Positions 3,127 to 38,945 of a stretch of 39,353 nt of DNA are shown here, piece after piece. This DNA is from a virus. The stretch lies in the IMG/VR virus record IMGVR_UViG_3300001839_000026, positions 1 through 39,353 of that record; one strand, 5' to 3'. Within the stretch, counting starts at the first letter, position 1. Each line of letters opens with the position of its first letter. The notes under the pieces are model-generated. The model was given only the letters and a program-made list of their open reading frames with translations, was not told the DNA's origin and did not search any database. Made by a program: the position numbers and the translations under genes.

Positions 3127-3456
3127 TTACTCAGTATCATTAACAATACGATAAGTAAAATGACCGCTAACTTGAGTTGCATTCAAAAGAGTCAACACCA
3201 ATGATTCACCAGAATTAGTCTCAAAAAGAGCATTCATGGTCATATATGTACTTGGTGCAGTAACACTCACAATTACTTCTGATGCACTAAGACTCATTGG
3301 TCCAGTAAGTGCATTTGTTGCACTTTTGAATGTCATAGTATTATCTGCAACAGCATTCAAAGTATATTGAATGACTTGAATTTTTTTTCCAGTAATGCCA
3401 GCAACCAAAGTATTGGCACCAGCAGTAGCAGTATCAATTTTTCCATAACCGATCAT
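3127..3456 (-). CDS. small beta-rich virion protein, paralogue 1 (109 aa)
   Basis: The start at 3456 has a clear RBS (GGAG). The 109 residues contain the segment NTLVAGITGKKIQVIQYTLNA, repeated almost word for word in the next gene upstream (3468-3797), with the same length and the same ending (YRIV-x-DT). The two are tandem duplicates about 11 bp apart. The chain is a run of short strands with no charged core, fitting a beta-sandwich decoration or accessory coat protein. It lies between capsid and connector genes. The exact role is unknown. Confidence 0.6.
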   Translation of the reverse strand: MIGYGKIDTATAGANTLVAGITGKKIQVIQYTLNAVADNTMTFKSATNALTGPMSLSASEVIVSVTAPSTYMTMNALFETNSGESLVLTLLNATQVSGHFTYRIVNDTE

Positions 3457-3467
3457 TGAAATCTCCT

Positions 3468-3797
3468 TTACATGGTATCTGGCACAATTCTGTATGACAA
3501 AAAACCACCAACATATTTCGCTTGTGTCAAGTTAATAATGAGAGATTGACCAGAACTTGTCTCAATTATGTGATTGATTGTTTGATAAGATGACACAGGC
3601 GCAGAAGCAGATACCCAAAAATCATTATTTACTTCAATTTGTCCAGTAATTGCAGTTGCGCCACTTTTGAATTGAATTTTCTGACTTGCTTCAGCGTTAA
3701 CACCAAATTGAATAACTTGAATTTTATTACCAGTTATACCAGCAACTAAAGTGTTATCTCCTGCTGTTGATGTGCCAATAACCACATGAGCAATCAT
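3468..3797 (-). CDS. small beta-rich virion protein, paralogue 2 (109 aa)
   Basis: The start at 3797 overlaps the stop of the preceding gene by 4 bp (ATGA), so the two are translationally coupled. It is equal in length to the gene at 3127-3456 and shares NTLVAGITG-x-KIQVIQ and the C-terminal YRIV-x-DT. The middle has diverged, with only scattered identities. This is a clear tandem gene duplication inside the structural operon. The likely product is a small decoration or accessory virion protein with a beta-sandwich fold. Confidence 0.6.
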   Translation of the reverse strand: MIAHVVIGTSTAGDNTLVAGITGNKIQVIQFGVNAEASQKIQFKSGATAITGQIEVNNDFWVSASAPVSSYQTINHIIETSSGQSLIINLTQAKYVGGFLSYRIVPDTM

Positions 3798-4264: not shown

Positions 4265-4831
4265 TTAAGTTTTATTTGACAAAATTGCTTTGCACCAATC
4301 GACTAATTCAGAATCGGTAAACGGTCCCTTCATCATATTTGCCCGAGAACAAACAAGCCTTACATTATCAATTTCATAACCTTTGTTTGAATCAATACGA
4401 TCAATTGAAATGTTTGTTGGAATCTTTCCTTTTCTCATTATATGCGTCATTTCAAAACCAGTTATAGCACATTTTCCTTTTTGATTTTCATATAAAACAA
4501 ACAATTGATCACAAGTTAATTGCTTCCTTTCTTTCATCAAATTTATAAGTTTTTGTAAATGACCTTTTACTGTAGAAGTTCTGTCTTGGTGTTTTTTAAT
4601 TATTGATTCTCTATGAGAATCATAATGTTTTTTACGATATTGTTTCTTTTTATCTGGATTTCTTTTTAACCATTCTTGGTTCTTTTGATAGATATAATCA
4701 TTATTTTTTTTTCTATAAAGTTTATTTACTTCTAATATACACTTTTTACATGTTTTATAAATAAATCCAGTACCTTTTGCATAAAACTCATCTAATTGTT
4801 TGTCTAAATTACACTTATTGCATGTAGGCAT
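4265..4831 (-). CDS. HNH endonuclease with N-terminal zinc-binding CxxC pairs
   Basis: I chose ATG 4831 (MPTCNKCNLDKQLDEFY), which has a GGGGG RBS. An upstream extension would read through the terminator hairpin. The 188 residues show two CxxC pairs (C4/C7 and C28/C31), then a lysine-rich linker, then an HNH core: CAITGFEM at 121-128, SIDRIDSNKGYEIDNVRLV at 142-160 and N165. The 'S-I-D-R-I-D ... G-Y ... N-V' pattern is the usual metal-binding beta-beta-alpha signature of HNH homing-type nucleases. It sits just after the capsid gene's terminator and interrupts the capsid-to-connector gene order, as free-standing homing endonucleases in phages often do. Confidence 0.85.
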   Translation of the reverse strand: MPTCNKCNLDKQLDEFYAKGTGFIYKTCKKCILEVNKLYRKKNNDYIYQKNQEWLKRNPDKKKQYRKKHYDSHRESIIKKHQDRTSTVKGHLQKLINLMKERKQLTCDQLFVLYENQKGKCAITGFEMTHIMRKGKIPTNISIDRIDSNKGYEIDNVRLVCSRANMMKGPFTDSELVDWCKAILSNKT

Positions 4832-4835
4832 ATAA

Positions 4836-4867
4836 AAACCCCCTACTACAATTATAGTAAGGGGTTT
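4836..4867 (-). terminator. intrinsic terminator after the major capsid gene
   Basis: The stem is built from AACCCC and TACTA on one side and TAGTA and GGGGTT on the other, about 10 bp with one mismatch, around a 6-nt AT loop. On the minus strand it is followed by TTTTTAT. It lies between the capsid stop (4894) and the HNH start (4831). The hairpin's GGGGG arm also supplies the RBS for the HNH gene. Confidence 0.75.
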
Positions 4868-4893
4868 CAAATTTTTCCATACCTATTCTACAA

Positions 4894-8287: not shown

Positions 8288-10666
8288 TTAAAGACCATTT
8301 ACTGTTGCACATGTTAAAATACTATTACAACCGAATGTTCCAGAAGCCGTGCAATATGTAATAGGATAACAAGTATTATATCCCAAAACATTATTTATAA
8401 ATGTTTTTCCTACTGCTTTGTTTTGTGATGGATCATTGGTTGTGTTATTAGGTGTTAAACTGGCTGGCAACCAAGCATAGTTAAATGCTCCAGTTTGATT
8501 TGGACCAGTTACCTGACCAGAACGAAGAGTTATGCCTGTTCCATAATAAGAAACAGCAGCATGAGTTCCGTTTGAACTCGGTTGTCTTGACATATTGGAT
8601 GGTTGACCATCAACATGACTTGTCATTCCAGAAGTGCAAGAAACCCATCTAACATGACAATTAAAAAGGTTATTGTATACTTGATAATGAATTGCTCCTG
8701 ATGTGTTATTAAATGTATTTGTATTTGAAACATAATTGATCAAATTCATTTCAATTTGATTGTCATAGTTTGCAATACCTTTTGTCTCATTAGTCATTGA
8801 AGTTTGACCAGATGTAAATCCAAGAACTGTTCCAATTAAACGACGAGTATTATCACTATTTTTTACTGGTATGCCATTCAAATAAGAAATTGCGTCAGTT
8901 CTGACATTAGGTCCAGTAAGACCACCAGATGAAATACCACCCACATAAGCTGCGGAATATTCCAAAGCAGGAACACCAGCATTATTATAACAGAATATGT
9001 CATAAACATTACCAGATGCCAAAGAGCTTGTAGCAATACTCACATTACCAGAAGAATAGCAATTTCCCCATACACCACCACTAAATAAAGCGATTCTATT
9101 TCCAATATAAGGATTCAAATAAATTGTCGAAGCACCAGAAGTAACACTATTGTCAACAGCAACACCAGATGTAACAGAAAGCCTAAATTGATTCATCAAA
9201 CTGACATCAGAAGTACCGCCACCGCCACCTGTTGCATTGATTGTATAAACATCATTTGCATCAGCAGTTATTGTAACATTAGTACCTTGAGTAAGACCTT
9301 TTACAACTTGTCCAGATGCAATATGAAATTTACCTATCGCACCACTTGCAATATCACCAGAAGTAACGCTGTTGTTTGCAAGCATTATATTCGTAATTGT
9401 ACCAGATAAAATGTTGCCAATTGCTGCACCAGAAGACAAATGATTGTTACTTACTTGACCAGAAGCAATATTGCCAGAAGTAACGCTGTTATTGGCAAGT
9501 AATGAGTTGCCAATTGAGGCAGCAGCAAGATTACCGATTGCTGCACCAGATGATAAATGATTGTTACTTATCTGACCAGAAGCAATATTGCCAGAAGTAA
9601 CGCTGTTATTGGCAAGTAATGAGTTGCCAATTGAGGCAGCAGCAAGATTACTGATTGCTGCTCCAGATGACAAATGATTGTTACTTATCTGACCAGAAGC
9701 AATATTACCGGATAGTATACTATTATTGGCAAGTAATGAGTTGCCAATTGATGCAGTAGCAAGATTACCGATTGCTGCTCCAGATGACAAATGATTGTTA
9801 CTTATCTGACCAGAAGCAATATTACCGGATAGAATTCCACCATTAGAAATGTGTATTGCTCCAATAGTATAAGGAGCAATTTTTCCTGAAGTCACCGCAT
9901 TGTCTTCAATATCAGCGTTGATTACTGCTCCTGAAGCAATATGATTAGCCGTAATTGAACCAGAAGCGATGTTGAAACTTGCGACTCCACCAGAACTGAT
10001 ATGAACGCTTCCAATAGCGCCGGATGCAATTTTACCTGAAGTCACAGCACCGTTAGCAATATCTCCAGCAATGATTGCGCCAGATGCTATAAGATTTGCC
10101 GTGATAGCTCCAGATGCAATCATGTTTGTTGTGATTGATCCAGCAGCAGGTAAAGTTAATTCACGATTGCTATATGGTGAATATTTACCAGAAATTAAAC
10201 GAATTCTAATTTTTGTGGTAGGAGCAGCAGAATAATCTGCAATAACGAAACCAATTGCATTCTCAGGACCAGTTGCAACTTCAACCTTTTTAGGATCACC
10301 AACAACACCTTGAACAAGTGTGCCAAATGAATATGTCGCACTATCACAATTTGCGTTGTAAATGACTTCTGTGTTTACAGTTATGCCATAAAATGAATCA
10401 CCAAGAAGTGCTGGAAAGCTAGGATAACCACCAGTTGAGTTCCAAGATGTGTGAGTTTGAATTGCTACGCCAGCAAAACTTGCTGCAATTGCTCCTGCTG
10501 TATCATTAACGCCTGCTTCAATGACATCAAAAGGAATAATTGTATTGTCATTTTTATAACAAACAAAATCACCAATACTGATTTCTGTTCCTACTGGAGC
10601 AGCAAGAACAACTCCAGCATTCGCAAACGGGAGAATAATGTCATTTCCATTGAATGTTTTACCCAT
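8288..10666 (-). CDS. head-fibre-like protein: decoration domain, repeat shaft, shared C-terminal domain (792 aa)
   Basis: The start at 10666 has AAAGGG upstream. Three parts are visible. Residues 1-167 are homologous to the decoration protein at 6253-6762. Residues 175-480 are a low-complexity shaft of 'SG-x-I-A-S-G' units, including four copies of a 39-residue repeat (117 bp in DNA). Residues 490-792 form a C-terminal domain that shares several blocks with the end of the fibre at 24695-29737: STIYLNPY-x-G, NVR-(T/A)-D, NTRRLIGT, IANYDNQ, LGYN-x-x-YP. I infer a trimeric fibre anchored to the capsid through its N-terminal domain and displaying a binding head. It lies between portal and protease genes, supporting head rather than tail assembly. 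Confidence 0.75.
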   Translation of the reverse strand: MGKTFNGNDIILPFANAGVVLAAPVGTEISIGDFVCYKNDNTIIPFDVIEAGVNDTAGAIAASFAGVAIQTHTSWNSTGGYPSFPALLGDSFYGITVNTEVIYNANCDSATYSFGTLVQGVVGDPKKVEVATGPENAIGFVIADYSAAPTTKIRIRLISGKYSPYSNRELTLPAAGSITTNMIASGAITANLIASGAIIAGDIANGAVTSGKIASGAIGSVHISSGGVASFNIASGSITANHIASGAVINADIEDNAVTSGKIAPYTIGAIHISNGGILSGNIASGQISNNHLSSGAAIGNLATASIGNSLLANNSILSGNIASGQISNNHLSSGAAISNLAAASIGNSLLANNSVTSGNIASGQISNNHLSSGAAIGNLAAASIGNSLLANNSVTSGNIASGQVSNNHLSSGAAIGNILSGTITNIMLANNSVTSGDIASGAIGKFHIASGQVVKGLTQGTNVTITADANDVYTINATGGGGGTSDVSLMNQFRLSVTSGVAVDNSVTSGASTIYLNPYIGNRIALFSGGVWGNCYSSGNVSIATSSLASGNVYDIFCYNNAGVPALEYSAAYVGGISSGGLTGPNVRTDAISYLNGIPVKNSDNTRRLIGTVLGFTSGQTSMTNETKGIANYDNQIEMNLINYVSNTNTFNNTSGAIHYQVYNNLFNCHVRWVSCTSGMTSHVDGQPSNMSRQPSSNGTHAAVSYYGTGITLRSGQVTGPNQTGAFNYAWLPASLTPNNTTNDPSQNKAVGKTFINNVLGYNTCYPITYCTASGTFGCNSILTCATVNGL
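9400..9830 (-). repeat. 117-bp tandem coding repeats in head-fibre gene
   Basis: Four units of about 117 bp (39 codons) encode SGNIASGQISNNHLSSGAA followed by IGNLAAASIGNSLLANNSVT. Neighbouring units differ by only a few bases, and the frame is kept in all of them. The DNA identity is high enough to allow unit gain or loss by recombination. Confidence 0.8.
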
Positions 10667-17035: not shown

Positions 17036-17578
17036 TTATTCATCAAAGAAATATGATTTGAGGCTGTCACGGAGCAATTCATAAGACAAATTTAATTGTT
17101 GATGAACGATGTTTCGAGTTAATTTGAGTTCTTTGCAGACTTGGTTAATATTATGATCAAAGAAAGTGAAATAACCAAGAATGATCTTGGCGACAATTGG
17201 TAATTCATCAATATTCTTTCTGATGATTTCTTCTTGTTCTTTGATAAGTAATAGGCGAATGGGATCATCCTTTTCATCACCCATGTCAAAATTGTCTGGA
17301 ATCGCAACAGTTTTAATGTTCTTTTTATTATTTGATCTATTAAATGTGTCTAAAGCAGACCAATTAGAATGTAAATGTAAAAAAGTAGTAATACGAGAAC
17401 GAGTTGAATCGTAGCGCAGCATCTTGTGGCATAACGCAAGATAAATTTCTTGCAAAATATCCTCATTTATTGGCTTTCCTTTAAGCGAATGTTTAATTAC
17501 AGCAATATTCTTCTCCATTTTTTCCCTACTTTTTTCAGTAAGTCTCGCTTGTTTCTTATTTTTCTTTTCACTAGACAT
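17036..17578 (-). CDS. ECF-like sigma factor (180 aa)
   Basis: The start at 17578 has RBS AAGGGGG. Region 2 lies at about residues 36-82: NEDILQEIYLALCHKMLRYD, then SRITTFLHLHSNWSALDTFN. This is the standard core-binding and -10 recognition pattern (D-x-x-Q-E ... F/Y-D ... T-F-L ... N ... D). After a short linker, residues 118-175 look like region 4, with a helix-turn-helix NQVCKELKLTRNIVHQQLNL. The length matches two-domain sigma factors. A phage-encoded sigma would redirect host RNA polymerase to phage promoters, perhaps for the late structural operon that starts just downstream. No anti-sigma gene is visible. Confidence 0.75.
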   Translation of the reverse strand: MSSEKKNKKQARLTEKSREKMEKNIAVIKHSLKGKPINEDILQEIYLALCHKMLRYDSTRSRITTFLHLHSNWSALDTFNRSNNKKNIKTVAIPDNFDMGDEKDDPIRLLLIKEQEEIIRKNIDELPIVAKIILGYFTFFDHNINQVCKELKLTRNIVHQQLNLSYELLRDSLKSYFFDE

Positions 17579-18622: not shown

Positions 18623-18721
18623 TAGTTATCGGTATTTTGGGATAATTTGAAAAAAAAATACATTGACTTTCGGAAAAAACTAGGCTAATCTAAAAATACG
18701 AAACCCGACCTAAGTTGTCGG
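18623..18721 (+). promoter_or_regulatory. promoter-hairpin element, copy A
   Basis: TTGACT (18663-18668), a 17-bp spacer, TAATCT (18686-18691), 13 nt, then CCGAC (18705-18709) - CTAAGTT - GTCGG (18717-18721). The 40 bp ahead of the -35 box are also shared with copy E (38848-38945). The two blocks of about 99 bp differ by one A in an A-run and two bases in the stem. It faces the plus-strand gene at 18761. Confidence 0.75.
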
Positions 18722-19252: not shown

Positions 19253-19311
19253 TTGACAAATTATTTTACTAAAGCTAAACTAAAAACAAGGAATCCGACC
19301 TTAGTTGTCGT
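19253..19311 (+). promoter_or_regulatory. promoter-hairpin element, copy B
   Basis: TTGACA (19253-19258), a 17-bp spacer, TAAACT (19276-19281), 13 nt, then CCGAC (19295-19299) - CTTAGTT - GTCGT (19307-19311), leaving four strict pairs. The loop contains the reverse-strand stop codon of the gene at 19301-19969. The promoter points antisense through that gene toward the primase at 20213. Confidence 0.7.
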
Positions 19312-20212: not shown

Positions 20213-22279
20213 ATGAACAGAACATTAGATCAACTCAATAGAATTGGAAAGACAGTAAAGTCTGGTACAAGAGCAATCAAGAAGTATCACATACTAGACG
20301 GCAACAAAAACAAAATCTGGTATGATGCTCTTGTTAAGAATTACAAAACTAACGAGACATATAAGACAAGAAAGCCTCTCATTGTTTCGGCATATGATGA
20401 GAGCAAAGCTATTGACTTGCCAGACTACAAGAAATCCTGTTTTGCGCTTTACAATTTCTTTGTGCCTCATCAATTAAAGCAATTTATTGTTCGCTGGTGT
20501 GATGAAAGCAATTGGAACACACTTGGCGTTACAAAAGGAAATATATTTGAGCTAACTGATTATTGGACTCATATTACAGGCAATGAAGAAGGCAAAGAAT
20601 GTTTTCTGAGTCGTACTGAACAAAAGAAGTTAAAAGAGGCAAATAAACGATTGCCAAAAGAAATTGTCATTAACGGAAGTGAAGTCAGATTTGGTTTAAT
20701 TGCCAATAACTTGGATGAAAAGTATTCATTCTTAAGCATTGATGTCGATACAAGCCGAGATATTGATGAAAATCATGGCAGAACAATGCGTGAAACGGCA
20801 TTGGAATTACATAACTTGTTTTATCACAAAGACTTAGGTGATTCTAATGTTAAAAGAATGATTCCGCAAAACATTAGTAAGCAGTCAGTTCAATATTTGT
20901 TAGTTTTAAGTAAACCGATGTCGGTTCGTGATATTCAGCAATTAGCGAATGATAGAATTTCTGGAATGAAGAATCGTGATCGCATTGATTTTATATCACC
21001 GAATATCAAAAAGGGAATGAGATTACCGTTTGATCGGTCTCGTCCTTGTTGTTTGTTTGGTAATTTGCTTCAATATTATGACATTTGTGACATTGAGAGC
21101 GCATTGTGGGATGATGATGCTGAGTTGACTATAACTGAAGATTGTTATGATTGGATGTTAGATTGGGGGTTCAGAGCGCACAATGTTTCAATTCCTAGTG
21201 TTATTCATCAGGTTGATGAGCGAAAAGATGAAGTTGTAAGTGCTGCTAATGAAGTTGATTTGTTTGATGAGACTATGATTGAGGAAGTTTGTTCAGTTGT
21301 TACGCCAAGTAAGCGTGGCAATTTTAGGAGCAATTGGTACAGCGATGTTCGCTACTTTATGGCGACAGGTCGCAGCAATACTTATGTTGGTCACAGCAAC
21401 ACGACAATGTCATTTCATTATCTTTCTGGCGTTGCAAAGTTACTGATGGCATATGGGCACAATCATTCTTACATTGCTGATTGGCTGTGGAAGTCCGTTT
21501 TAGTGCAAAGATTTGATTTAACTCATGCTGAAATAGAAAACATTGTTGAAAGAGCATGGTTGTACGACAAAGAAAACACAATGATGAAGAAGATTGTGAA
21601 GAATAATCCAGAATATTCGAATAATATGTTGCGTCTGGTAGAGACTGGCATGGCGACATTTACTAGTTCTGCCATCGAAGGCAAAGTATTGCAAATCCTC
21701 AAAGATGTTCAATTTATGGAACATATTAAGGGGAACAACAATATCAATGATGTTGCGAAGCTTGTGTCAGTCGTTATCTACAAGGCTTTTAACGGTGTAG
21801 GCATAACGAACAACTATATCAAGGCTGTGATTGAGAAAAATAATTTAGCCATTAACAAGTCACACGATTACATTACAGCTTTTATTTCTGCATTGGCGAA
21901 GACAAGATTGGTCCATCGCACATTTACGGCTTCCAGTAAACATCTGCGTTCTAAATACGAGATTGGCGAAGCAATTAGGGAGTTGATTGCTGCTGTCGAT
22001 GCTATGGCAGAAGAATTGGCTACCATTGATTGTAACGAATTAGCTCCTGTCGTGACGCAAATAATTGATGTTCGCAAAAAGATCAATGCATCTGAAAAAC
22101 CAAATATGTTGGATTGTGTTGATCTCTGGTTGTCTTGCGCACATTTTTGTCTGATGGTAGAAAAGAATGAGATCATGGATCAGAAAGTGAGACGGATTAA
22201 CAAAAAATTATCATTGACTTTGTCGCCAAGTAAGTTAGTATGCAAAAGTAACCCGTCCTTAGTTGACGGCTGCCGATAA
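20213..22279 (+). CDS. primase-like replication protein (688 aa, AEP type suspected)
   Basis: The start at 20213 has GGAGG. The 688-residue protein shows YSFLSIDVDTSRDID at 171-185, a hydrophobic strand followed by Asp177-x-Asp179 as in motif I of archaeo-eukaryotic-type primases. QYLLVLSKPMS follows at 227-237 and GMRLPFDRSRP at 268-278, the 'R-L-P' region common after the catalytic core in these proteins. Residues about 395-455 (TTMSFHYLSGVAKLLMAYG, then HSYIADWLWKSV) resemble a PriCT-type helical domain. The usual second-motif S-x-H is not obvious, so primase activity is an inference. The C-terminal 200 residues are helical. It is the only large replication candidate in the genome. Confidence 0.55.
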   Translation: MNRTLDQLNRIGKTVKSGTRAIKKYHILDGNKNKIWYDALVKNYKTNETYKTRKPLIVSAYDESKAIDLPDYKKSCFALYNFFVPHQLKQFIVRWCDESNWNTLGVTKGNIFELTDYWTHITGNEEGKECFLSRTEQKKLKEANKRLPKEIVINGSEVRFGLIANNLDEKYSFLSIDVDTSRDIDENHGRTMRETALELHNLFYHKDLGDSNVKRMIPQNISKQSVQYLLVLSKPMSVRDIQQLANDRISGMKNRDRIDFISPNIKKGMRLPFDRSRPCCLFGNLLQYYDICDIESALWDDDAELTITEDCYDWMLDWGFRAHNVSIPSVIHQVDERKDEVVSAANEVDLFDETMIEEVCSVVTPSKRGNFRSNWYSDVRYFMATGRSNTYVGHSNTTMSFHYLSGVAKLLMAYGHNHSYIADWLWKSVLVQRFDLTHAEIENIVERAWLYDKENTMMKKIVKNNPEYSNNMLRLVETGMATFTSSAIEGKVLQILKDVQFMEHIKGNNNINDVAKLVSVVIYKAFNGVGITNNYIKAVIEKNNLAINKSHDYITAFISALAKTRLVHRTFTASSKHLRSKYEIGEAIRELIAAVDAMAEELATIDCNELAPVVTQIIDVRKKINASEKPNMLDCVDLWLSCAHFCLMVEKNEIMDQKVRRINKKLSLTLSPSKLVCKSNPSLVDGCR
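22214..22269 (+). promoter_or_regulatory. promoter-hairpin element, copy C
   Basis: TTGACT (22214-22219), a 16-bp spacer, TAGTAT (22236-22241), 11 nt, then CCGTC (22253-22257) - CTTAGTT - GACGG (22265-22269). It lies within the last codons of the primase-like gene and faces the sigma region 2 gene at 22465. The stem is the CCGTC/GACGG version, as in copy D. Confidence 0.65.
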
Positions 22280-24694: not shown

Positions 24695-27600
24695 TTATCC
24701 CATTTGTGTTGCATGAATACGGTAAAGAGCATATTGCAATGTGCCAGACAAAGTATTTCTTTCTTGTGGATACGCATAATTATATCCGAGAACACCTTGA
24801 GTATGAGCCATTTGCGCTCCTTGATATTCTGTTGTTGCACTAGTTGTATATATTGCAGAATATGCACCGGCAGCAGCATTAGTCGTTGCATCTAGTATGC
24901 TAAATCCTGTTCCAGCCGTTCTAGCCACGCCTCCCCATATGCTAAGAGTACCACCGACTCCAGCAACAGATTGCACCCAGAATATTTGATTGCCAGATGT
25001 GTTATTCCATATTCTTGCTACTGTTGATGAATATGTGTGACTTGTTGAGTCTGTGTTAAACAACGGTCTTGGAACTTGGTTGTCGTAGTTTGCAATATAA
25101 CGGCTTATTAAAGTGTCTTCTGTTGTGGTAGGAGAAGAAGCACGAATTGTGCCGATCAATCTCTTTGTATTATCAGTAGACAACACATAAGTGCCATTTT
25201 TATATGTTAATGTATCTGCTCTTACATTATCAGTTGTCCAAGCAGTAGAAAATGTAAGTTGTGGATTTACGCCGTTCGGGCTTGCGTAAATGTCATATAG
25301 TTTTCCACTTGTTAAACCAGTAATAGCAAGAGAAACACAAGTTCCAGATGTGTTATATAATTGCCAAGATGAACCATTCCACAGACCAATATTATCGCCA
25401 GTATATGGATTGAGATAGATTGTACTTTGTGATGCTTGGTCAGTAGATGTTATTGATACGCCAGATTGAACGCCTATTCGGAAATCATTGATACGGGTAA
25501 TACTATTTCTTATTTCATTTCCTACATGAAACCAGCCAATCTGTCCAGATGCTATTGCTCCACTTGTAATTGCTCCACTTGTGACTGAAAATAGTCCAAC
25601 AGTACCAGATGCTGTTGGGGCAAAAGATTTATTGCCATAAATTCCAGATGTTACATAAATGTTTTTGAAACTTGCATTTTGTGGGAATTGTCTACCTATA
25701 TACAGATTGTCAATTTCTCCAGCCCATTCACATTTTAATGTGATTCTTCCTCTAGATGGAGATCGATAGCCGGTTGCACTACTGGTACTTGGAACGATGA
25801 CAATGGCATCTGCACCGACACAAATTCCACCATAGCTTATTGATGGAGCAGTCCATCCACTCGGGGTTGACAAACCACCCTCAATGTATCTTTCTGCTGC
25901 CGTACTACCACCAGTTAATGGTAACAATAAGAATTGTCCACCATAATAAATAGGATACCATGTATTGGTAATTGCGGTTGTAAATGCAGTCCAATTTAAT
26001 CCATCATAAGAAATATATTGAGTTGTACTTGCACTATTTGTAATAAGGAAAATTCCATTGCCATAAATGATATATTGCGCTGTGATCGCTGCTGGCAAAT
26101 AAGCTGTTGTAAATGTACCTGATCCATCCCATATTTGTATTTGATCAGTTGATCCTGATTGAATGAAGATATATTTTCCTGCTCCATACGCAACATCTTT
26201 CCAGTTACCTGCCGCTGGAGTTGGCATTGTCACTTGAGTAAAATCTCTGGCAGTAAGATGACTACTTGCCCAAACACCCGTAGTCGCCGTCCTTACACCA
26301 AGAGCAACGCATTTCGTACCAACACTTCTTATGTTATAAAGCGTATCGAATATTGGACTTGAAATTGCATATGTCGTAAAATTGATTCCATCATAACTGT
26401 AATAATCAACACTAAGACCGCCATCTTGAACGATAACCCATGTCCCCATGCTCTCAACATAGACAATTTTTTTATTTCCAGCGTAAACAGTACCAAAAAC
26501 AGAACAATTAGACCAATTTATTCCATCATAGCTATAAACAGGTGCATTTGTTCCAGAGTCTACGGCAACATACATATTCATTCCTGCTGCAACATCAGTC
26601 CATGTCCTTGTTGCCGGAAGAGTGACAGCAACCCAATTGAAACTTTCACCACCAATAAAATTGTTCAAATGATCAGTCACAATAGTTGACTGTGTTGTCA
26701 ATTGTTGGAAATTAAGAGTTCCAGAAGAAATAATTCCACTATTTATGTTTAATTGATTCCATTGTAATGCTGTTCCATTTAGCTGAAGAAAGTATCCAGA
26801 TGTAGGTGTAGTGCTTCCTAAGTGATAAGTTCCAATTTGTCCGCTGGCAATTGATCCGCTAATTACACTATTAGCAGAAATATTACCACTATTGATTGAA
26901 TTTACATTTATGTGACCGCTGCGGACTACTCCAGATGATAATGAATTAAGTCCGATCTGACCAGAAGCAATAATTCCAGATGTTATGCTATTTGGAGCAA
27001 AATGTCCGCTATTGACAATTCCGCTTGCAAGATTGAATGTGTTAATTTGTCCACTTGCGATTGCACCACTTGCTATAGAAGCAGGTGCATAATGTCCGCT
27101 ATTGACAATTCCGCTTGCAAGATTGAATGTGTTAATTTGTCCGCTTGCTATTGCACCGCTTGCAATTGAAGCGGGTGCATAATGTCCGCTATTGACGATT
27201 CCACTTGCAAGATTGAATGTGTTAATTTGACCTGATGCAATTACACCGCTTGCAATTGAATTGGCAGCTATATGACCGCTATTTACAGCATTCGCAGATA
27301 AATGATATTGTCCTATTTGACCCGATGCAATGCTGCCACTAACAACAGAGTTGTTACCAAGATAGCCACTTGTAACTTGTCCTGAAGTTAAACTTGTTGT
27401 AGGAAGTGTTGACCAAGTTAATGCCAAATTTTGATTCAACATTAGGAAATAACCTGATGTTGGTGTAGTGCTTCCGAAATGGTAAGTTCCAATTTGACCA
27501 GATGCTATACTACCACTAATAACAGAATTTGCACTAATATTTCCACTATTTACAGCATTTGTTGTTATATGTCCGCTGTTTACGATTCCACTTGCAAGAT

Positions 27601-29737
27601 TGAATGTGTTAATTTGTCCGCTTGCTATTACACCGCTTGCAATTGAAGCGGGTGAATAATGTCCACTATTGACAATTCCGCTTGCCAAATTAAATCTGTT
27701 AATTTGACCTGATGCAATTACACCGCTTGCTATAGAAGCGGGTGCATAATGTCCGCTATTGACAATTCCGCTTGCCAAATTAAATCTGTTAATTTGACCT
27801 GATGCAATTACACCGCTTGCTATAGAAGTGGGTGCATAATGTCCGCTATTGACGATTCCACTTGCAAGATTGAATGTGTTAATTTGTCCGCTTGCTATTG
27901 CACCAGAATAAATAGAATTATTGCTAAGATGATATCGTCCTACTTGTCCGCTTGCTATTGCACCGGAATAGACAGAATTAGCGCTAAGATGATATTGTCC
28001 TACTTGTCCTGATGCGATACTCCCGCTTACAACAGTATTGTCACCTAAATAACCAGATGTAACTACACCTGATGTAAGTGAAAATCCTGCACTTGGAACA
28101 ATCCAATCAAAAAAAATTCCATCTGTAGTAAGTATGTATCCACTAGTTGGCGCAGATATTGTACCAAGATGATATTGTCCTACTTGTCCGCTTGCTATTG
28201 CACCGGAATAGACAGAATTATCACTAAGATGATATTGTCCTATTTGTCCAGATGCAATGCTTCCACTTACAACACTATTGTCTCCCAAATAACCAGATGT
28301 AACTACACCTGATGTAAGTGAAAATCCTGCACTTGGAACAATCCAATCAAAAGAACTTCCATCTGTAGTAAGTATGTATCCACTAGTTGGGGCAGATATT
28401 GTACCCAGATGAGGTTGTTGTATTTGACCTGATGCTATTGCACCGGAATAAACAGAATTGTCTGATAGATGATACTGACTGATTTGTCCAGATGCAATGC
28501 TTCCACTTACAACACTATTGTCTCCCAAATAACCAGATGTAATTATACCTGAACTCAAAGAAAAAGTAGACGGGACAACAATCCAATCAAATGCATTTCC
28601 ATCTGTAGTAAGTATGTATCCACTAGTTGGCGCAGATATTGTACCAAGATGAGGCTGTTGTATTTGACCTGATGCAATATTACCAGAATAAACAGAATTA
28701 TCGCTAAGATGATATTGTCCTAGTTGTCCTGATGCTATTGCACCGGAATAAACAGAATTATCTGATAAGTGATATTGTCCTAGTTGTCCTGATGCTATTG
28801 CACCGGAATAAACAGAATTATCGCTAAGATGATATTGTCCTAGTTGTCCTGATGCTATTGCACCGGAATAAACAGAATTATCTGATAAGTGATATTGTCC
28901 TACTTGTCCTAATGCTATTGCACCAGAATAAACAGAATTATCTGATAAGTGATATTGTCCTACTTGTCCTGATGCGATACTACCGCTTACAACACTATTG
29001 TCTCCCAAATAACCAGAAGTAACTACACCTGATGTCAATAAAGTTCCAGCATTTGGAATAATCCAATCAAATGCATTTCCATCTGTAGTAAGTATGTATC
29101 CACTAGTTGGGGCAGATATTGTACCCAGATGAGATTGTTGTATTTGTCCTGATGCTATTGCACCAGAATAAACAGAATTATCTGATAAGTGATATTTTCC
29201 TACTTGTCCTGATGCTATTGCACCGGAATAAACAGAATTATCGCTAAGATGATATTGTCCTAGTTGTCCTGATGCTACTGCACCAGAATAAACAGAATTA
29301 TCTGATAAGTGATATTGTCCTACTTGTCCAGATGCAATGCTTCCACTTACAACAGCATTATCTGCAATCATTCCTGATTGAACGCAACCAGAAGACAGAG
29401 AAAAAGGTATCGCCCAATCAAATTGTGTTCCATCAGTAGTTAATACAGCGCCAGATGTTGGTGATGTGATTGTTCCAAGATGAGGTTGTTGTATTTGTCC
29501 AGATGCGATATTACCACTTACGACAGCAGAATCTCCAATCATACCGCTGGTAATAGCACCACTCCCGATTAAGGGAGTGGCATAAGGATTGACTAAAACA
29601 TTGACGCTGCCAGATAGTACGCCACCGACATACAGAATCTTGCCATCAACATCAGTAGCCAGTTCTCCCGTATAGAGAGACGCTGGCACATTACCGCTGC
29701 TGGTGCTAAATTTATTGATAATCGTAATATCTGGCAT
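24695..29737 (-). CDS. giant repeat tail fibre / receptor-binding protein (1680 aa)
   Basis: The start at 29737 has GGAGAG close upstream. N-terminus: GNVPASLYTGELATDVDGKI then LYVGG, a phrase found at the start of many phage fibre proteins ('L-x-x-GELA-x-x-x-D-x-K-LYVG'). Residues 55-1020 are a shaft of 'SG-x-IASGQ' units, with 20-residue (60-bp) and 30-residue (90-bp) tandem forms. Residues about 1030-1365 carry repeated YSYDGINW-type blades and look like a beta-propeller. Residues 1395-1680 share blocks with the head-fibre C-terminus (STIYLNPYTG, NTKRLIGTI, IANYDNQ). It is likely the main adsorption protein. Tandem identity suggests length variation. Confidence 0.75.
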   Translation of the reverse strand: MPDITIINKFSTSSGNVPASLYTGELATDVDGKILYVGGVLSGSVNVLVNPYATPLIGSGAITSGMIGDSAVVSGNIASGQIQQPHLGTITSPTSGAVLTTDGTQFDWAIPFSLSSGCVQSGMIADNAVVSGSIASGQVGQYHLSDNSVYSGAVASGQLGQYHLSDNSVYSGAIASGQVGKYHLSDNSVYSGAIASGQIQQSHLGTISAPTSGYILTTDGNAFDWIIPNAGTLLTSGVVTSGYLGDNSVVSGSIASGQVGQYHLSDNSVYSGAIALGQVGQYHLSDNSVYSGAIASGQLGQYHLSDNSVYSGAIASGQLGQYHLSDNSVYSGAIASGQLGQYHLSDNSVYSGNIASGQIQQPHLGTISAPTSGYILTTDGNAFDWIVVPSTFSLSSGIITSGYLGDNSVVSGSIASGQISQYHLSDNSVYSGAIASGQIQQPHLGTISAPTSGYILTTDGSSFDWIVPSAGFSLTSGVVTSGYLGDNSVVSGSIASGQIGQYHLSDNSVYSGAIASGQVGQYHLGTISAPTSGYILTTDGIFFDWIVPSAGFSLTSGVVTSGYLGDNTVVSGSIASGQVGQYHLSANSVYSGAIASGQVGRYHLSNNSIYSGAIASGQINTFNLASGIVNSGHYAPTSIASGVIASGQINRFNLASGIVNSGHYAPASIASGVIASGQINRFNLASGIVNSGHYSPASIASGVIASGQINTFNLASGIVNSGHITTNAVNSGNISANSVISGSIASGQIGTYHFGSTTPTSGYFLMLNQNLALTWSTLPTTSLTSGQVTSGYLGNNSVVSGSIASGQIGQYHLSANAVNSGHIAANSIASGVIASGQINTFNLASGIVNSGHYAPASIASGAIASGQINTFNLASGIVNSGHYAPASIASGAIASGQINTFNLASGIVNSGHFAPNSITSGIIASGQIGLNSLSSGVVRSGHINVNSINSGNISANSVISGSIASGQIGTYHLGSTTPTSGYFLQLNGTALQWNQLNINSGIISSGTLNFQQLTTQSTIVTDHLNNFIGGESFNWVAVTLPATRTWTDVAAGMNMYVAVDSGTNAPVYSYDGINWSNCSVFGTVYAGNKKIVYVESMGTWVIVQDGGLSVDYYSYDGINFTTYAISSPIFDTLYNIRSVGTKCVALGVRTATTGVWASSHLTARDFTQVTMPTPAAGNWKDVAYGAGKYIFIQSGSTDQIQIWDGSGTFTTAYLPAAITAQYIIYGNGIFLITNSASTTQYISYDGLNWTAFTTAITNTWYPIYYGGQFLLLPLTGGSTAAERYIEGGLSTPSGWTAPSISYGGICVGADAIVIVPSTSSATGYRSPSRGRITLKCEWAGEIDNLYIGRQFPQNASFKNIYVTSGIYGNKSFAPTASGTVGLFSVTSGAITSGAIASGQIGWFHVGNEIRNSITRINDFRIGVQSGVSITSTDQASQSTIYLNPYTGDNIGLWNGSSWQLYNTSGTCVSLAITGLTSGKLYDIYASPNGVNPQLTFSTAWTTDNVRADTLTYKNGTYVLSTDNTKRLIGTIRASSPTTTEDTLISRYIANYDNQVPRPLFNTDSTSHTYSSTVARIWNNTSGNQIFWVQSVAGVGGTLSIWGGVARTAGTGFSILDATTNAAAGAYSAIYTTSATTEYQGAQMAHTQGVLGYNYAYPQERNTLSGTLQYALYRIHATQMG
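27000..27920 (-). repeat. 90-bp tandem coding repeats in fibre gene
   Basis: Units of 30 codons read IASGVIASGQINTFNLASGI followed by VNSGHYAPAS. There are at least six copies in two groups (about 27000-27240 and 27570-27900), often nearly identical at the DNA level, and the frame is kept. Confidence 0.75.
28660..29340 (-). repeat. 60-bp tandem coding repeats in fibre gene
   Basis: Units of exactly 60 bp encode SVYSGAIASGQLGQYHLSDN. Around 28680-28980 five successive units differ by only a few bases each. Another group lies at 29150-29340, and further scattered units occur down to 27900. High identity suggests recent expansion. Confidence 0.85.
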
Positions 29738-32798: not shown

Positions 32799-32856
32799 TT
32801 GACAAATCTAAAAACATAAACTAAACTAAAAAAAGTAACCCGTCCTAAGTTGACGG
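32799..32856 (+). promoter_or_regulatory. promoter-hairpin element, copy D
   Basis: TTGACA (32799-32804), a 17-bp spacer, TAAACT (32822-32827), 12 nt, then CCGTC (32840-32844) - CTAAGTT - GACGG (32852-32856). It points to the right, antisense to the minus genes at 32976 and 33316. The following 120 bp (32857-32975) hold a stretch richer in G+C than the surroundings but no gene. Confidence 0.7.
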
Positions 32857-32975: not shown

Positions 32976-33287
32976 TTATGCCAAAATGTATTTAAGAGCC
33001 AATTTAAGCAAAAACATAATCGCAGCAGAACTCAATATTCCCTTTTTAATACTGTCAATATTAGGATCGCTGATAATACCCTCTAATTCATCAACGCAAG
33101 CCTCATCAGATACAACCATCATAGGATTTTCTTGATGAACAAGAGGAATACCCATATGCAGACAATATCCAGCAATATTCCAACTTGCAGTTACTACTTC
33201 AGGCAAGTCATGCTCACCTACGCCACGAAACTTTTCTAAAAGAATGTTGACAGCTTGAAAATCTAAAGACTCTGGTAATTGAATCAT
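32976..33287 (-). CDS. hypothetical protein with C-terminal hydrophobic helix (103 aa)
   Basis: The start at 33287 has AAGGAG. The 103 residues begin MIQLPESLDFQAVNILLEKF and end with a hydrophobic stretch ILSSAAIMFLLKLALKYILA, which looks like a tail anchor or membrane helix. The middle is acidic. No family is recognised. It sits between the cysteine protease and the DUF5856-like gene, in the zone where lysis genes would be expected. Confidence 0.5.
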   Translation of the reverse strand: MIQLPESLDFQAVNILLEKFRGVGEHDLPEVVTASWNIAGYCLHMGIPLVHQENPMMVVSDEACVDELEGIISDPNIDSIKKGILSSAAIMFLLKLALKYILA

Positions 33288-33315: not shown

Positions 33316-34239
33316 TTAGAAATTCCAATCGATTTGCCTCTTGGGAAATCCTGAATAACTGCTTAATGCAAAACTATCACCAGCAGCCAACATACGATCA
33401 ACCACAGCAGCATCAGCCCAAAATGCACCATCATTCATGGGAATTGATCCTTTCGGACCCTTGATCCATTTACTTCCCCATGAATTGTCAATAATGAACC
33501 CATCACGCAATTTGTTGTTCTGTTTCTTTTTCTGATATCCACTAATGCACATACAATGCCCCCAACTACCAGATGGCTTGGCAAATCCTTGTTCATCTCT
33601 TGTGCTTGAGAAGCCTTGATTGGAACAAACTGTAATAAAGAAACCTTGAGCGAGAGCAACCATCGCATCTTTGTAATTAGTAATTTTGGTGTAACTCTTT
33701 ACAGGATGCAACTTTGCGACATTTTCCATGTCTTTGCTCATCCCAATTTTACCCAATTTACGACATTGAGCTTCGTCATATGCTGTGAGATCAAGATCGC
33801 CGTATTTGCCTCTCTTGACCATGCCATATTGTTTGATTGCCTGACAAGCCCATGCACCAATAGAACCATCACCAGTTATGCGCCCACCGCCAATTTCAAC
33901 ACGACTAAGTGCATATGTTACTTCCTGCGTCAAAGTCTGAAATTCTTCTTTATCTTTCAATAAATAAATTTCTGCCAATGATAAATATTCGACTGCTTTT
34001 GTAGTACCAAAACCGACGCAACTACCCACAGACTTTTGATCATAATCAGGTAATGCATGTCCTAATACTTTTGTTGCTATTTCAGCACCAGAGATATAAT
34101 CTGGTATATCATCATAGCTTAAACCAGATGCATCAGTATCATTCCAAAGTTGTACATTGTTAGCCTTTACTACATCAGCTACAATATCAGGTTCATTTAT
34201 CCAACCAAAATAAGCTGGTGCTATAATCTTATTACTCAT
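33316..34239 (-). CDS. papain-like (C1) cysteine protease (307 aa)
   Basis: The start at 34239 has AGGAG. All catalytic landmarks of the C1 family are present in order: Gln68 and Cys74 in DQKSVGSCVGFG, His228 in GSWGHCMCISGY, Asn252 in FIIDNSWGSKW. No signal peptide is visible. Residues 1-60 may be a propeptide or substrate-binding extension. Papain-type enzymes cut peptide bonds. In a phage this could process virion proteins, act at entry, or degrade a protein-rich cell wall at lysis. It lies among small membrane-protein genes and there is no obvious peptidoglycan hydrolase in the genome. Confidence 0.8.
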   Translation of the reverse strand: MSNKIIAPAYFGWINEPDIVADVVKANNVQLWNDTDASGLSYDDIPDYISGAEIATKVLGHALPDYDQKSVGSCVGFGTTKAVEYLSLAEIYLLKDKEEFQTLTQEVTYALSRVEIGGGRITGDGSIGAWACQAIKQYGMVKRGKYGDLDLTAYDEAQCRKLGKIGMSKDMENVAKLHPVKSYTKITNYKDAMVALAQGFFITVCSNQGFSSTRDEQGFAKPSGSWGHCMCISGYQKKKQNNKLRDGFIIDNSWGSKWIKGPKGSIPMNDGAFWADAAVVDRMLAAGDSFALSSYSGFPKRQIDWNF

Positions 34240-35280: not shown

Positions 35281-38079
35281 TTATCGACCCCCTCTAGCGG
35301 GGATAAATGGTTTTCTTTCATTCGTGAATGCTTGGACGAGTGCGCTTGCTTGCGGATTTGCAAGTAATTGATCAAGTTTTGAAAATACAGACATTTGCAT
35401 TCTTTCGAGCGTATAACCGGCAGTAAATGCTCTTTGTTGCATTTCACGCCCAACATCAGATATGCCTTTGAAGCTGGCTTGTCCGACTGTGGGGAACATA
35501 GCTGGGATATATTGATCTTTACTGCGATCTCTCTTTTTCAATGCTTCTCGTTTTGGTTTATTTTCTTCTTCTACTCCTAATGCTTTAGCCAATGCTGGTG
35601 GAAGTTTTGCTTCACCAACTGCTTTAGAAAGACCAGAGAAGTCACCTTTAGTGCCTGCTCCAACGAACCATCCGAGCCATCCTGCGAAGTCTTCTAGGGC
35701 AGCAAGTACGATTTTTATGCCAGAAATGAATGGCGCAACAATCCAATTGTACAAACCATCGCCAATCCATTTAACAGTTTCACCAAGCCAATTCAACCAT
35801 TTACCAACAGTAGAAACAGCAGTAGCTGCTGCTGAAATATCCTCAACTATTTGTGCAACACCATTAACTAAATCTTCAATTAAGGTTTCAAAATCCATTT
35901 CTCCAATGGCATCAATTACAGTTTGAGCCAAAGTGGCTAAAGCTAGTTGTAAAGATTGAATTATGCCAGAATTAACCAAATCATTTAGAATTCCGTTAAG
36001 TCCTTGATTAAGAATTTGGAGTGCTGGTGTGAGGACTGTGCCAATAATTGCTGCCATACTTTCAAGCAATTGATTTGTCATCTGTGCAGTAGCAGGATCA
36101 ACTAAATTGACGAATCCAGCCATTTCTTTCATGATGGCTGGCAATCCCTTTAATGGATTGATAAGTGCTTCTTGTATCTTTGGTAAATAATCAGTTTGTA
36201 GTTCTCCGACTGTATCAGCTTGACTTTGTTTTCTCTTAGCTTTCATGCCAAGAAGATCAAAACCAAAGAATAAACGATCAGCAGCATTGCTTAATCTCGT
36301 TAATGCAGTTGCAAATGGTGTTAATATTGTGTTGACGATTTTGCCTAATATTTTGCCAACACCGCCGATGATATTGCCAAATGCTGATGCAATTTTAAGT
36401 GTGTTTTTAAGTTCTAATCCAAAAGATGCAACATTAGCAGTTAACAATCCAGATACTAAATTTCCAAGACTTAGTAAACTTTTACCAGCATTGAATGCAA
36501 CAGAAGTTAATGTACTCATTGATTTGCCGAGTACACTTTCACCGGCAGCTTCTGATAATTTTTTACCTATTGCTGTTACGCCTTTGAATAAAGATTGAAT
36601 TCCTTTTCCAATACCGGCACCAGCAACAGCACCACCCGCTGCACCAGCCATTCCTCCCATCGGACCACCAAGAGTACCACCGATGCCAGCACCAATTGCA
36701 CCACCAATCATGCCTGATCTTTTACCAAAAAAATTGCCAATAGATTTCATCCATTGTGGCATTTGCATTTGGGAAGAGCGAGGTTGTTTCAGATTAAATA
36801 ATTTATCTAATGTGTCTTTTAACTTTGGATTAGCTTCTTTGAGTTTGTCAATAAATGTTGTGTCTATTTTTGCAAGATCACGCAACATTGATTCAAATTC
36901 TGTACTTGCTTTTTGTAATTCATCAATTCTGAATATTTTTTCAGAAGCAGGCAAAGCACTAATTTCTTGTATAGTATCTTGTAATACTTCTAAATGTTTT
37001 CCTACTGCTTTTGCGTTTTTGTCATATGCTGCTGATTGTTCAAAAATCGTAGAATAGAGGCTTTCCATTTCTCTATCTGCTGCATCTTGAGTAGCATTAA
37101 GTGTTCTTAACTTTTCGTTTGATTGTGATACTGTCCTACTCCATTGCTTCAGATCATTGAAATTGTTTATTATTTCTCGTTCAAAATCATTTATCGCTGG
37201 ATCAGTATTTCTAAGATGTGTTCCAAAATCATTTAATTCATTTCTTAATACTTCTAGGATATCATTAAATGTTTCACCATCACTTGCAAAATGCGTAACT
37301 AAATCTTGAAAACTACCAATCATTCCTTGTGTGGCAGGTGTCATACGAGCAAAAGCAGCATTTAATTCACCAATAATTCTTTGCCAGTTTTCTTGTGCTG
37401 CTACTGATTCATCATAGATTCTAGTTGCTTCAATTTCGCTTTCAATAGCAATTGAAGTTGCATCATTTTGTCTATTTATTGTATTTCTTAATGATTCAGC
37501 ATCTTTAATCAATTCTTTGAATGTTATGCTACTCATTCCTTTGAGTTTTGTCTCAATTATAGTTAATGCAGATGATATTGAACTTACGGCTTCAGGAGCG
37601 TGTTCTTCAGATACAGGTGCAATTTCAGGCATTCTTACAGATTGTAATGCATCTTTTATTTTAACAGGTTTAATTTTAGCTAATTCTTTTACTGATACAG
37701 TTGCAATGCCCATAGCAGCAGCAAAACCAGAAATCGTTTTGATAAATCTATCAATAATTCCAAAACCACCAAATGATCCAAGAGCATCACGGATTTCTTG
37801 ACCTAATTTTGCAAATAAGTCAGCATTAGTCTTTAGATTTTTATTTTGACCACGCAACGCAGCAATATTGCCAGTTGCAGGATTTGCAGAAGTTTGAAGT
37901 AATCGTAAATGCTTGTTTTGAATCTGCACCAATTGATTCAAAAGGAAATTGTTTCTTTTTGTGTAATTTGCTTGTTTCTCCATTGCATCTGCAACCATAT
38001 CAAGCGCATCGGTTAATGGCTTGAAAGCATCAGATGGATCAGAGTCGCCACTTGTTGGTGTTGGTATATCAATTGGCAT
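35281..38079 (-). CDS. tail tape measure protein (932 aa)
   Basis: The start at 38079 overlaps the TAA of the frameshift product by one base and has AAGGA. The 932-residue, mostly helical protein has coiled-coil regions up to about residue 450, then Gly/Ala-rich hydrophobic stretches (GAIGAGIGGTLGGPMGG) and several predicted membrane-like helices (LVSGLLTANVASFGLELKNT), ending in a basic tail. This is typical for siphovirus tape measures, which set tail length and help DNA injection. By the usual rule of about 0.15 nm per residue the tail would be near 140 nm. No lytic domain was seen. It follows the chaperone pair, as expected. Confidence 0.85.
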   Translation of the reverse strand: MPIDIPTPTSGDSDPSDAFKPLTDALDMVADAMEKQANYTKRNNFLLNQLVQIQNKHLRLLQTSANPATGNIAALRGQNKNLKTNADLFAKLGQEIRDALGSFGGFGIIDRFIKTISGFAAAMGIATVSVKELAKIKPVKIKDALQSVRMPEIAPVSEEHAPEAVSSISSALTIIETKLKGMSSITFKELIKDAESLRNTINRQNDATSIAIESEIEATRIYDESVAAQENWQRIIGELNAAFARMTPATQGMIGSFQDLVTHFASDGETFNDILEVLRNELNDFGTHLRNTDPAINDFEREIINNFNDLKQWSRTVSQSNEKLRTLNATQDAADREMESLYSTIFEQSAAYDKNAKAVGKHLEVLQDTIQEISALPASEKIFRIDELQKASTEFESMLRDLAKIDTTFIDKLKEANPKLKDTLDKLFNLKQPRSSQMQMPQWMKSIGNFFGKRSGMIGGAIGAGIGGTLGGPMGGMAGAAGGAVAGAGIGKGIQSLFKGVTAIGKKLSEAAGESVLGKSMSTLTSVAFNAGKSLLSLGNLVSGLLTANVASFGLELKNTLKIASAFGNIIGGVGKILGKIVNTILTPFATALTRLSNAADRLFFGFDLLGMKAKRKQSQADTVGELQTDYLPKIQEALINPLKGLPAIMKEMAGFVNLVDPATAQMTNQLLESMAAIIGTVLTPALQILNQGLNGILNDLVNSGIIQSLQLALATLAQTVIDAIGEMDFETLIEDLVNGVAQIVEDISAAATAVSTVGKWLNWLGETVKWIGDGLYNWIVAPFISGIKIVLAALEDFAGWLGWFVGAGTKGDFSGLSKAVGEAKLPPALAKALGVEEENKPKREALKKRDRSKDQYIPAMFPTVGQASFKGISDVGREMQQRAFTAGYTLERMQMSVFSKLDQLLANPQASALVQAFTNERKPFIPARGGR

Positions 38080-38818
38080 TAGATGTAATCCTTGTATAAT
38101 TCGTTAAATTCTTTCTCCAATTCGACGGGATCACGACCGAATTGTTTGCCGACATTGATGAAGTTTTGTCGTTCAATTTCTGGTATAAATATTGTCCTAG
38201 ATTGTAATGGATCAAGTTGTTGCTTCTGCCCGTGCTTGTCTCTTTCGCCAAAATATAATGTGTGTATCTGATAATCAGTCAATAAAGCAATTTGCCCTAG
38301 TGGGAGAGAAAAAGGCTCCTCCACTAGGGCAGCATAACATGACGCTACACCAAAAACCTGATGCTGGCTTAGTCGCTCTGGTCTGCCTTCTCCAGATTTT
38401 TTTTTAGTTGAGGAAAAGAAAGATCGAGCAATTGTTTAATCAATAGAGAACAATCAAGAGGATTTTGCAATAACGCATCTTCCCAATATTCTTGACTCTC
38501 TCCAGATGAAATCGCCAACAAGGTAGCAATCCCTGTAGGAGTTCCCAAAAACTGTTGCATGGTGCGTGATCCAAAACTGTACTTTCCAGAAACTACAGCC
38601 TCAGAATGCGATTCCCACGCCAACTTAAATTCATCATCGGACAATTGAACTTTTTCATTTTTCAAAAGCTGCTTGGCTTTTGTAATAAGCTTGTTTTCTA
38701 ATGCAGCCTTCACAGTTTGATCAACTAACTTGAATTTCAGCTTCTTTCCATCAATTTCATGTTCCAAACCACCACCGAAATTACCCAGATTAGCAATAAC
38801 ATTAGCATTCTGTTCCAT
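38079..38818 (-). CDS. tail assembly chaperone, -1 frameshift fusion (gpGT-like, 246 aa)
   Basis: The 0-frame gene from 38818 holds a run of nine A (38405-38397) in CTA-AAA-AAA-AAT, a canonical A-AAA-AAA slip site. After a -1 shift the frame stays open through KSGEGRPERLSQHQVFGVAS, CYAALVEEPFSLPLG and then LTDYQIHTLYFGERDKHG to the TAA at 38081-38079, giving 140 + 106 residues. The C-terminal part has no good start of its own (only GTG without RBS) and has the look of other 'T' extensions (L-T-x-x-Q-I-x-x-L-Y-F). The two products usually bind the tape measure and guide tube assembly. Confidence 0.85.
38369..38818 (-). CDS. tail assembly chaperone, short form (gpG-like, 149 aa)
   Basis: The start at 38818 has GGGAG. 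The 149 residues (MEQNANVIANLGNFGGGLEH) contain a helical middle (KLKFKLVDQTVKAALENKLI) and a C-terminal FPQLKKNLEKADQSD. Normal termination gives this form and slippage at 38397-38405 gives the long form. Size, position just ahead of the tape measure and the slip site identify it as the G-type chaperone. Its start lies 29 bp from the plus-facing promoter-hairpin copy E, which points away. Confidence 0.8.
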   Translation of the reverse strand: MEQNANVIANLGNFGGGLEHEIDGKKLKFKLVDQTVKAALENKLITKAKQLLKNEKVQLSDDEFKLAWESHSEAVVSGKYSFGSRTMQQFLGTPTGIATLLAISSGESQEYWEDALLQNPLDCSLLIKQLLDLSFPQLKKNLEKADQSD

Positions 38819-38847
38819 ATATTGCTCCCAAAATAAAGATCACACAA

Positions 38848-38945
38848 TAGTTATCGGTATTTTGGGATAATTTGAAAAAAAATACATTGACTTTCGGAAA
38901 AAACTAGGCTAATCTAAAAATACGAAACTTGACCTAAGTTGTCGG
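38848..38945 (+). promoter_or_regulatory. promoter-hairpin element, copy E
   Basis: TTGACT (38887-38892), a 17-bp spacer, TAATCT (38910-38915), 13 nt, then TTGAC (38929-38933) - CTAAGTT - GTCGG (38941-38945). The stem closes with two U-G pairs in RNA but would be mismatched in DNA. It is nearly identical over about 98 bp to copy A. It faces right, antisense to the gene at 38934-39209, whose stop codon lies in the loop. Confidence 0.75.

Follow-up and report, generated by a model that had tools for sequence, protein, structure and literature searches.

A likely lambda-type G/GT tail chaperone pair joined at a nine-adenine slip site in an uncultured phage

The 39,353-nt IMG/VR record IMGVR_UViG_3300001839_000026, analysed over its whole length (the window, to which all coordinates refer), belongs to an uncultured phage and carries on its minus strand two overlapping open reading frames (ORFs) that meet at a run of nine adenines (A9). 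Analysis of this locus and of its relatives revealed that each frame encodes a conserved protein and that the two, in a −1 relation, meet at the slip point beside a tape-measure gene. We consider it likely that they form a lambda-type G/GT pair of tail assembly chaperones, and that the shift is made by the ribosome rather than by slippage of RNA polymerase. Most ribosomes would end the first ORF after 149 residues, giving G, while a minority would slip by −1 on the heptamer A_AAA_AAA (38405-38399), yielding a 246-residue G-T fusion that would end exactly where the tape measure gene starts. If the roles known from lambda apply, the tape measure protein would be coated by G, and the T part would recruit the tail-tube subunits.

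The G-like ORF (38369..38818, minus strand, 149 residues), the putative short form of the chaperone, is preceded by the Shine-Dalgarno (SD)-like sequence GGGAG. Close to its 3′ end, opposite a T9 run of the plus strand at 38397-38405, the minus strand reads in the G frame TCT TTT CCT CAA CTA AAA AAA AAT CTG GAG AAG, with the A9 read as CTA AAA AAA AAT. The heptamer A_AAA_AAA lies in the 0 frame within the overlap of the two ORFs and is itself overlapped by A_AAA_AAT (38402-38396). No stop interrupts the −1 frame between 38435 and its end at 38079, and from 38399 onward it encodes a T-like extension of 106 residues (38079..38399, minus strand) beginning KSGEGRPER; the frames thus bear out the original prediction that the A9 run joins the 149-residue ORF to a 106-residue extension without a stop. 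A possible second slip tetramer, U_UUU (38414..38417, minus strand), may lie slightly upstream in a conserved Ser-Phe motif (TCT TTT CCT), where the −1 frame is open too and where some relatives have their U_UUY site (see below). The −1 frame also scores best in codon usage over 38079-38399 (mean log-odds −0.008 versus −0.363 and −0.419). The extension stops at 38079 and overlaps by one base (TAATG) the ATG (38079-38077) of an ORF of 932 residues (35281..38079, minus strand), which matches phrog_167, tail length tape measure protein, with an E value of 9.8e-9.

As had been predicted, this second part has no start codon with a ribosome-binding site. The sole ATG, GTG or TTG of the −1 frame ahead of the conserved T core is the GTG at 38324, 45 nt past the G stop, and in contrast to the G ORF no SD-like sequence stands upstream of it. 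The locus therefore presents the features of a lambda-type G/GT pair: a pair of overlapping ORFs immediately before the tape measure gene, a slippery heptamer in the 0 frame within the overlap, and a second ORF in the −1 frame that lacks an initiation signal of its own.

By itself, the A9 run is no more than chance, since four such runs are observed on both strands of the window and 4.97 are expected. In-frame heptamers of the form X_XXY_YYZ (Y = A or T) number 49 in its 46 ORFs, and at only two of these places, the slip locus and 3468-3797, the −1 frame runs more than two codons beyond the 0-frame stop. The second candidate, TTTTTTG, was rejected, its −1 frame entering a neighbouring ORF that has its own ATG. 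The two adjacent 109-residue ORFs at this place (3127-3456 and 3468-3797), located between the genes of the major capsid protein (MCP) and the neck, both match one single gene region of loci L011 and L013 and are therefore likely paralogues arising from a tandem duplication. It is the comparative evidence that is decisive for the arrangement at the slip locus being more than chance.

Relatives, all of them uncultured, were reached stepwise, from a scan with a TerL alignment and local tblastn to an MCP alignment and finally to an alignment of T. Neither viral contigs nor phage records yielded relatives in direct searches with G or the tape measure protein, a search with one MCP returned only a distant phage (L002), and single-sequence searches with TerL and portal returned a contig identical to part of the window and ending short of the slip site. 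TerL also matched named phages, but at a distance too great to be of use for the slip locus, and neither a profile search of genome contigs with the T alignment nor tblastn of named phages with the relatives' G or T found anything. The TerL scan and tblastn identified four loci (L011, L013, L020, L022) that have portal, protease and MCP in common with the window. The MCP alignment retrieved 28 loci, of which 15 reach the tape measure gene; a T-like −1 frame is present in 14 of these, L120 being unresolved. Five of the 14 (L097, L106, L107, L108, L116) have a pair homologous to that of the window, eight have a different chaperone pair with G_GGA_AAC, and L117 has C_CCA_AAA. In L093, L098/L099/L114 and L100/L102/L103/L104 (MCP 47% identical), this different pair has a short T extension, and G_GGA_AAC stands directly before the G stop (GGA AAC TAG). 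The tail module thus appears to have been exchanged between phages with related heads.

The scan with the T alignment yielded 52 loci, five of them on the contigs of L097, L106, L107, L108 and L116. T lies in the −1 frame of G in 51 of the 52, the remaining one (L157) being cut by the contig end. This relation was read directly in 48 loci and assigned by profile in L137, L167 and L171, because in these the T frame happens to be open far upstream. A large ORF follows T in the relatives, in the same layout as in the window. Profiles of G and T built without the window each gave one match in its six-frame translation (798 segments), at 38372-38839 for G (E 1.7e-40) and at 38082-38435 for T (E 1.1e-23). 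Against L121, G of the window matches over residues 1-140 (41%) and T from the slip residue onward (40%), so that homology changes frame at the slip: that of G stops there and that of T begins. Together, the −1 position of T in the relatives and the match of both frames to window-free profiles point to a lambda-type G/GT pair, and the G/GT logic that had been proposed from the letters alone is upheld, with both parts conserved, the −1 relation present in every readable relative of the T search and a large ORF following.

Clustering at 80% T identity, with L167 added by hand, gave 23 clusters of relatives apart from the window, and analysis of their overlaps revealed several slip motifs at one conserved junction. 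C_CCA_AAC is found in seven clusters (L121, L122, L123, L126, L154, L165, L170), A9 with A_AAA_AAA in five besides the window (L127, L137, L139, L151, L172), C_CCA_AAA in L160 and A_AAA_AAC in L168. Eight clusters have no A/T heptamer but a T before the Phe codon of the same Ser-Phe motif, forming a U_UUY tetramer, written TCT TTC in L128, L132, L138, L161, L164, L166 and L167 and AGT TTT in L169; the sites of L128, L138 and L164 can also be read as U_UUC_CCN, a heptamer with Y = C. A shift-prone motif is hence present in the overlap of 22 of the 23 clusters, that of L171 being uncertain. According to PMC4066793, U_UU.C and U_UU.U rank second and third among the tetramers in Escherichia coli when a stimulator is present, and A_AA.A_AA.A is among the motifs that shift above 0.10% there without one. 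The Ser codon ends in T in all eight clusters that lack a following A/T heptamer and in one of the eight heptamer clusters with the Ser-Phe motif (Fisher p 0.0014; two of nine if the window is counted), which is weak evidence because the U_UUY rows form a single branch of the tree and are not independent.

That tree was built from 36 of the 53 sequences (the window and 52 loci) with the slip columns left out; near-copies, L157 and L171 were dropped, the last being excluded from the hairpin test as well for its uncertain slip site. The U_UUY branch has a support of 96/88, and the window falls within a set of nine rows (100/99) of which the other eight all have C_CCA_AAC. Slip type requires at least six changes on the tree. 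Since the window lies among C_CCA_AAC relatives, A9 probably replaced C_CCA_AAC in its lineage, as suggested also by an alignment made by eye in which the codons CCA AAC TTG AAG GAG of L121 face CCT CAA CTA AAA AAA of the window. The branch of the window is long (1.58), so its exact neighbour and finer placement are unsure. In such relatives the A run is disrupted while both frames are kept, an observation that the original prediction had named as refuting it. This outcome was literally found, yet it does not refute the slip, because C_CCA_AAC or U_UUY stands at the homologous place, mostly with a hairpin.

Hairpins were evaluated at 23 anchors, one in the window and one in each of 22 clusters: the best hairpin to begin 4-9 nt past the motif was compared with those at 60 control positions in the same genes. 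The hairpin was better than all 60 controls at 12 of the 23 anchors, which points to ribosomal frameshifting in the family: this was the case for four of seven C_CCA_AAC, six of eight U_UUY and two of six A9 anchors, and for neither of the two with other motifs. The C_CCA_AAC members of the clade to which the window belongs usually have a hairpin 5-8 nt downstream. Four of the eight U_UUY hairpins begin at a distance of exactly 6 nt from UUY; for the remaining four the distance is 4, 5, 7 and 9 nt.

Several points weigh against a ribosomal G/GT frameshift in the window. There is no stimulatory hairpin at the normal spacing, the best one 4-9 nt downstream having −3.3 kcal/mol and being matched by 26 of the 60 controls, and no SD-like sequence stands before the A9 run. 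The absence of a strong downstream pseudoknot noted by eye in the first inspection therefore holds at normal spacing; farther away, a very stable hairpin (38293..38331, minus strand, −24.6 kcal/mol, 16-nt arms) begins 67 nt after the heptamer within the T part. It is the most stable of 13,105 minus-strand segments of 39 nt taken in steps of 3, its sole equal being the same hairpin shifted by one base. This hairpin is too far from the slip site for a usual stimulator. In addition, every one of the 12 A-run loci (six clusters, window included) has a run of exactly nine A's, although this run occurs in three codon registers (1+6+2, 2+6+1 and 3+6+0) and the heptamer needs only seven, eight or nine A's according to register; a run that exceeds this need in two of three registers fits polymerase slippage at least as well. 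Finally, no family member matches a named chaperone family. None of the 36 G or 36 T members has a match in PHROGs, and Pfam gave only a weak, unrelated match to KinB_sensor in four of the 36 G members. Since such ORFs share low sequence similarity between phages, as stated in the accessible part of PMC5009743, the missing match bars assignment to a named protein family, not the gene role.

The rival explanation that these points keep alive is that RNA polymerase slips while transcribing A9 and inserts a single extra A into part of the transcripts; A10 mRNA would then be read into the same G-T fusion without any ribosomal shift. The lack of a hairpin at normal spacing in the window makes it a live rival, although on balance we hold it rather unlikely. 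The invariant run length speaks for it, as does the finding that the six slip-site runs are the only coding-strand A9 runs in 50,572 nt of the six cluster representatives (9,353 nt from the window). Three of these six (the window, L151 and L172) have no hairpin near the site. Bacterial polymerase slippage is described as efficient in vivo with nine As or Ts, the RNA-DNA hybrid being 9-10 bp (PMC5009743), and a threshold of An with n>7 appears in PMC3711429; the A9 of the window and of the 11 other A-run loci reaches the minimum of about 8-9 A or T expected of such genes. On the other hand, among the A9 loci L127 and L139 do show hairpins, 4 and 9 nt past the site, that are better than any of the 60 controls, and the sister motifs C_CCA_AAC and U_UUY are not homopolymer runs, so that the mechanism would have had to switch. 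The hairpin z scores of A9 loci differ from the rest with a p of only 0.055. Moreover, efficiencies of about 25-50% at such runs, in cases cited within the part of PMC5009743 seen by us, seem high against the ratio of 30:1 given there for lambda. The ribosome is thus favoured by the family history of ribosomal signals, by the hairpins of some A9 members and by the low ratio expected for the role, the polymerase by the invariant run length and the bare site of the window. Sequence cannot tell the two apart on A9; the same protein and the same peptide, KSGEGRPER, would result either way.

A broader form of this idea, which we regard as doubtful, is that the family has repeatedly changed its way of producing the fusion, from ribosomal frameshifting (C_CCA_AAC or U_UUY with a hairpin) to polymerase slippage on a run of exactly nine A's or back, the window being one switched lineage. 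If this were true, the pair would be, to our knowledge, the first tail chaperone pair governed by the transcription machinery; the portions of PMC5009743 and PMC10885494 available to us describe none that relies on polymerase slippage.

Two further explanations are very improbable and were rejected. In the first, translational coupling would start T at GTG 38324 as a protein of its own, and the open −1 frame upstream would be incidental. The presence of this codon shortly past the G stop speaks for it, but the GTG lacks an SD-like sequence and is part of the stem formed by the strand's most stable hairpin, and the shift-prone motifs of the relatives' overlaps argue against a separate start. 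An assembly error hiding one continuous ORF with A10, or a decayed gene with a dead second part, could be invoked because errors are common in homopolymers and the searches turned up no other record across 38397-38405 (L003 and L004 stop near 33071). However, the two-frame layout is repeated in independent contigs whose motifs are not homopolymers, A9 recurs in 11 other loci, and T retains codon bias and homology.

The locus would be an ordinary further member of the known G/GT kind, whose protein family is absent from PHROGs and Pfam. The model of G (mean predicted local distance difference test score, pLDDT, 83.8) gave three viral fold matches with E < 0.001, all to unnamed proteins, while several entries named tail assembly chaperone were weak matches (E 0.2-0.9); against the PDB, the fold search of G gave no match of weight, and the sequence search gave no match for G and only weak partial matches for T, the best being a designed protein (E 0.0011). 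The slippery heptamer of lambda is G_GGA_AAG. G/GT frameshifting is conserved in tailed phages, and compared with lambda gpG/gpGT, as described in the available sections of PMC5009743, the window has an A9 slip run and a T extension that directly abuts the tape measure ATG, and its pair matches no PHROG or Pfam chaperone family. With the HK97-like tail assembly chaperone cluster, for which a frameshift of 6-7% was measured in a reporter (PMC3711429, in the part accessible), the pair would share gene role and event type, but it belongs to a different protein family as far as similarity reaches. The A_AAA_AAA and A9 sites resemble those of insertion sequence (IS) elements and dnaX, where, according to the parts of PMC5009743 and PMC4066793 at hand, both mechanisms are used in related genes; these systems differ from the window locus, a putative tail chaperone.

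Elsewhere in the window, the ends 1 and 39353 join in frame into one 188-residue ORF without a stop, and the joined order major tail protein, G/GT, tape measure is that of siphoviruses; it is therefore probable that the record represents a whole genome, either circular or circularly permuted. A 17-bp dyad (CYGWC-AACTWAG-GWCRG, up to one mismatch) occurs at six near-identical sites, where 0.01 are expected: these lie at 1791-1807 on the plus strand and at 18705-18721, 19295-19311, 22253-22269, 32840-32856 and 38929-38945 on the minus strand. Those at 1791, 18705, 32840 and 38929, read by eye, are each just downstream of a sigma-70-like TTGACW...TAAACT/TAATCT pair and so look like putative repressor operators. 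A stretch of 99 bp with promoter and operator is present twice, at 18623-18721 and at 38848-38945 (97% identical). The second copy immediately precedes the G ORF and is oriented in the opposite direction. Two large tail-fibre-like ORFs (24695-29737 and 8288-10666) have many internal repeats that are about 72-92% identical at the DNA level, one ORF being just upstream of TerL and the other between portal and protease. Also found were a papain-family cysteine protease domain (Pfam Peptidase_C1) near the tail genes (33316-34239), an endonuclease VII-like gene between the MCP and neck genes (4265-4870) and a sigma-factor-like gene (17036-17578).

As the family is missed by PHROGs and Pfam, such genes would be annotated as two unrelated hypothetical proteins. 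The family constitutes a natural experiment in which one conserved protein junction is combined with several slip signals, with and without hairpins. With it one can ask how phages maintain the chaperone ratio through a change of signal, and whether slippage of the ribosome and of the polymerase can stand in for each other at this junction.

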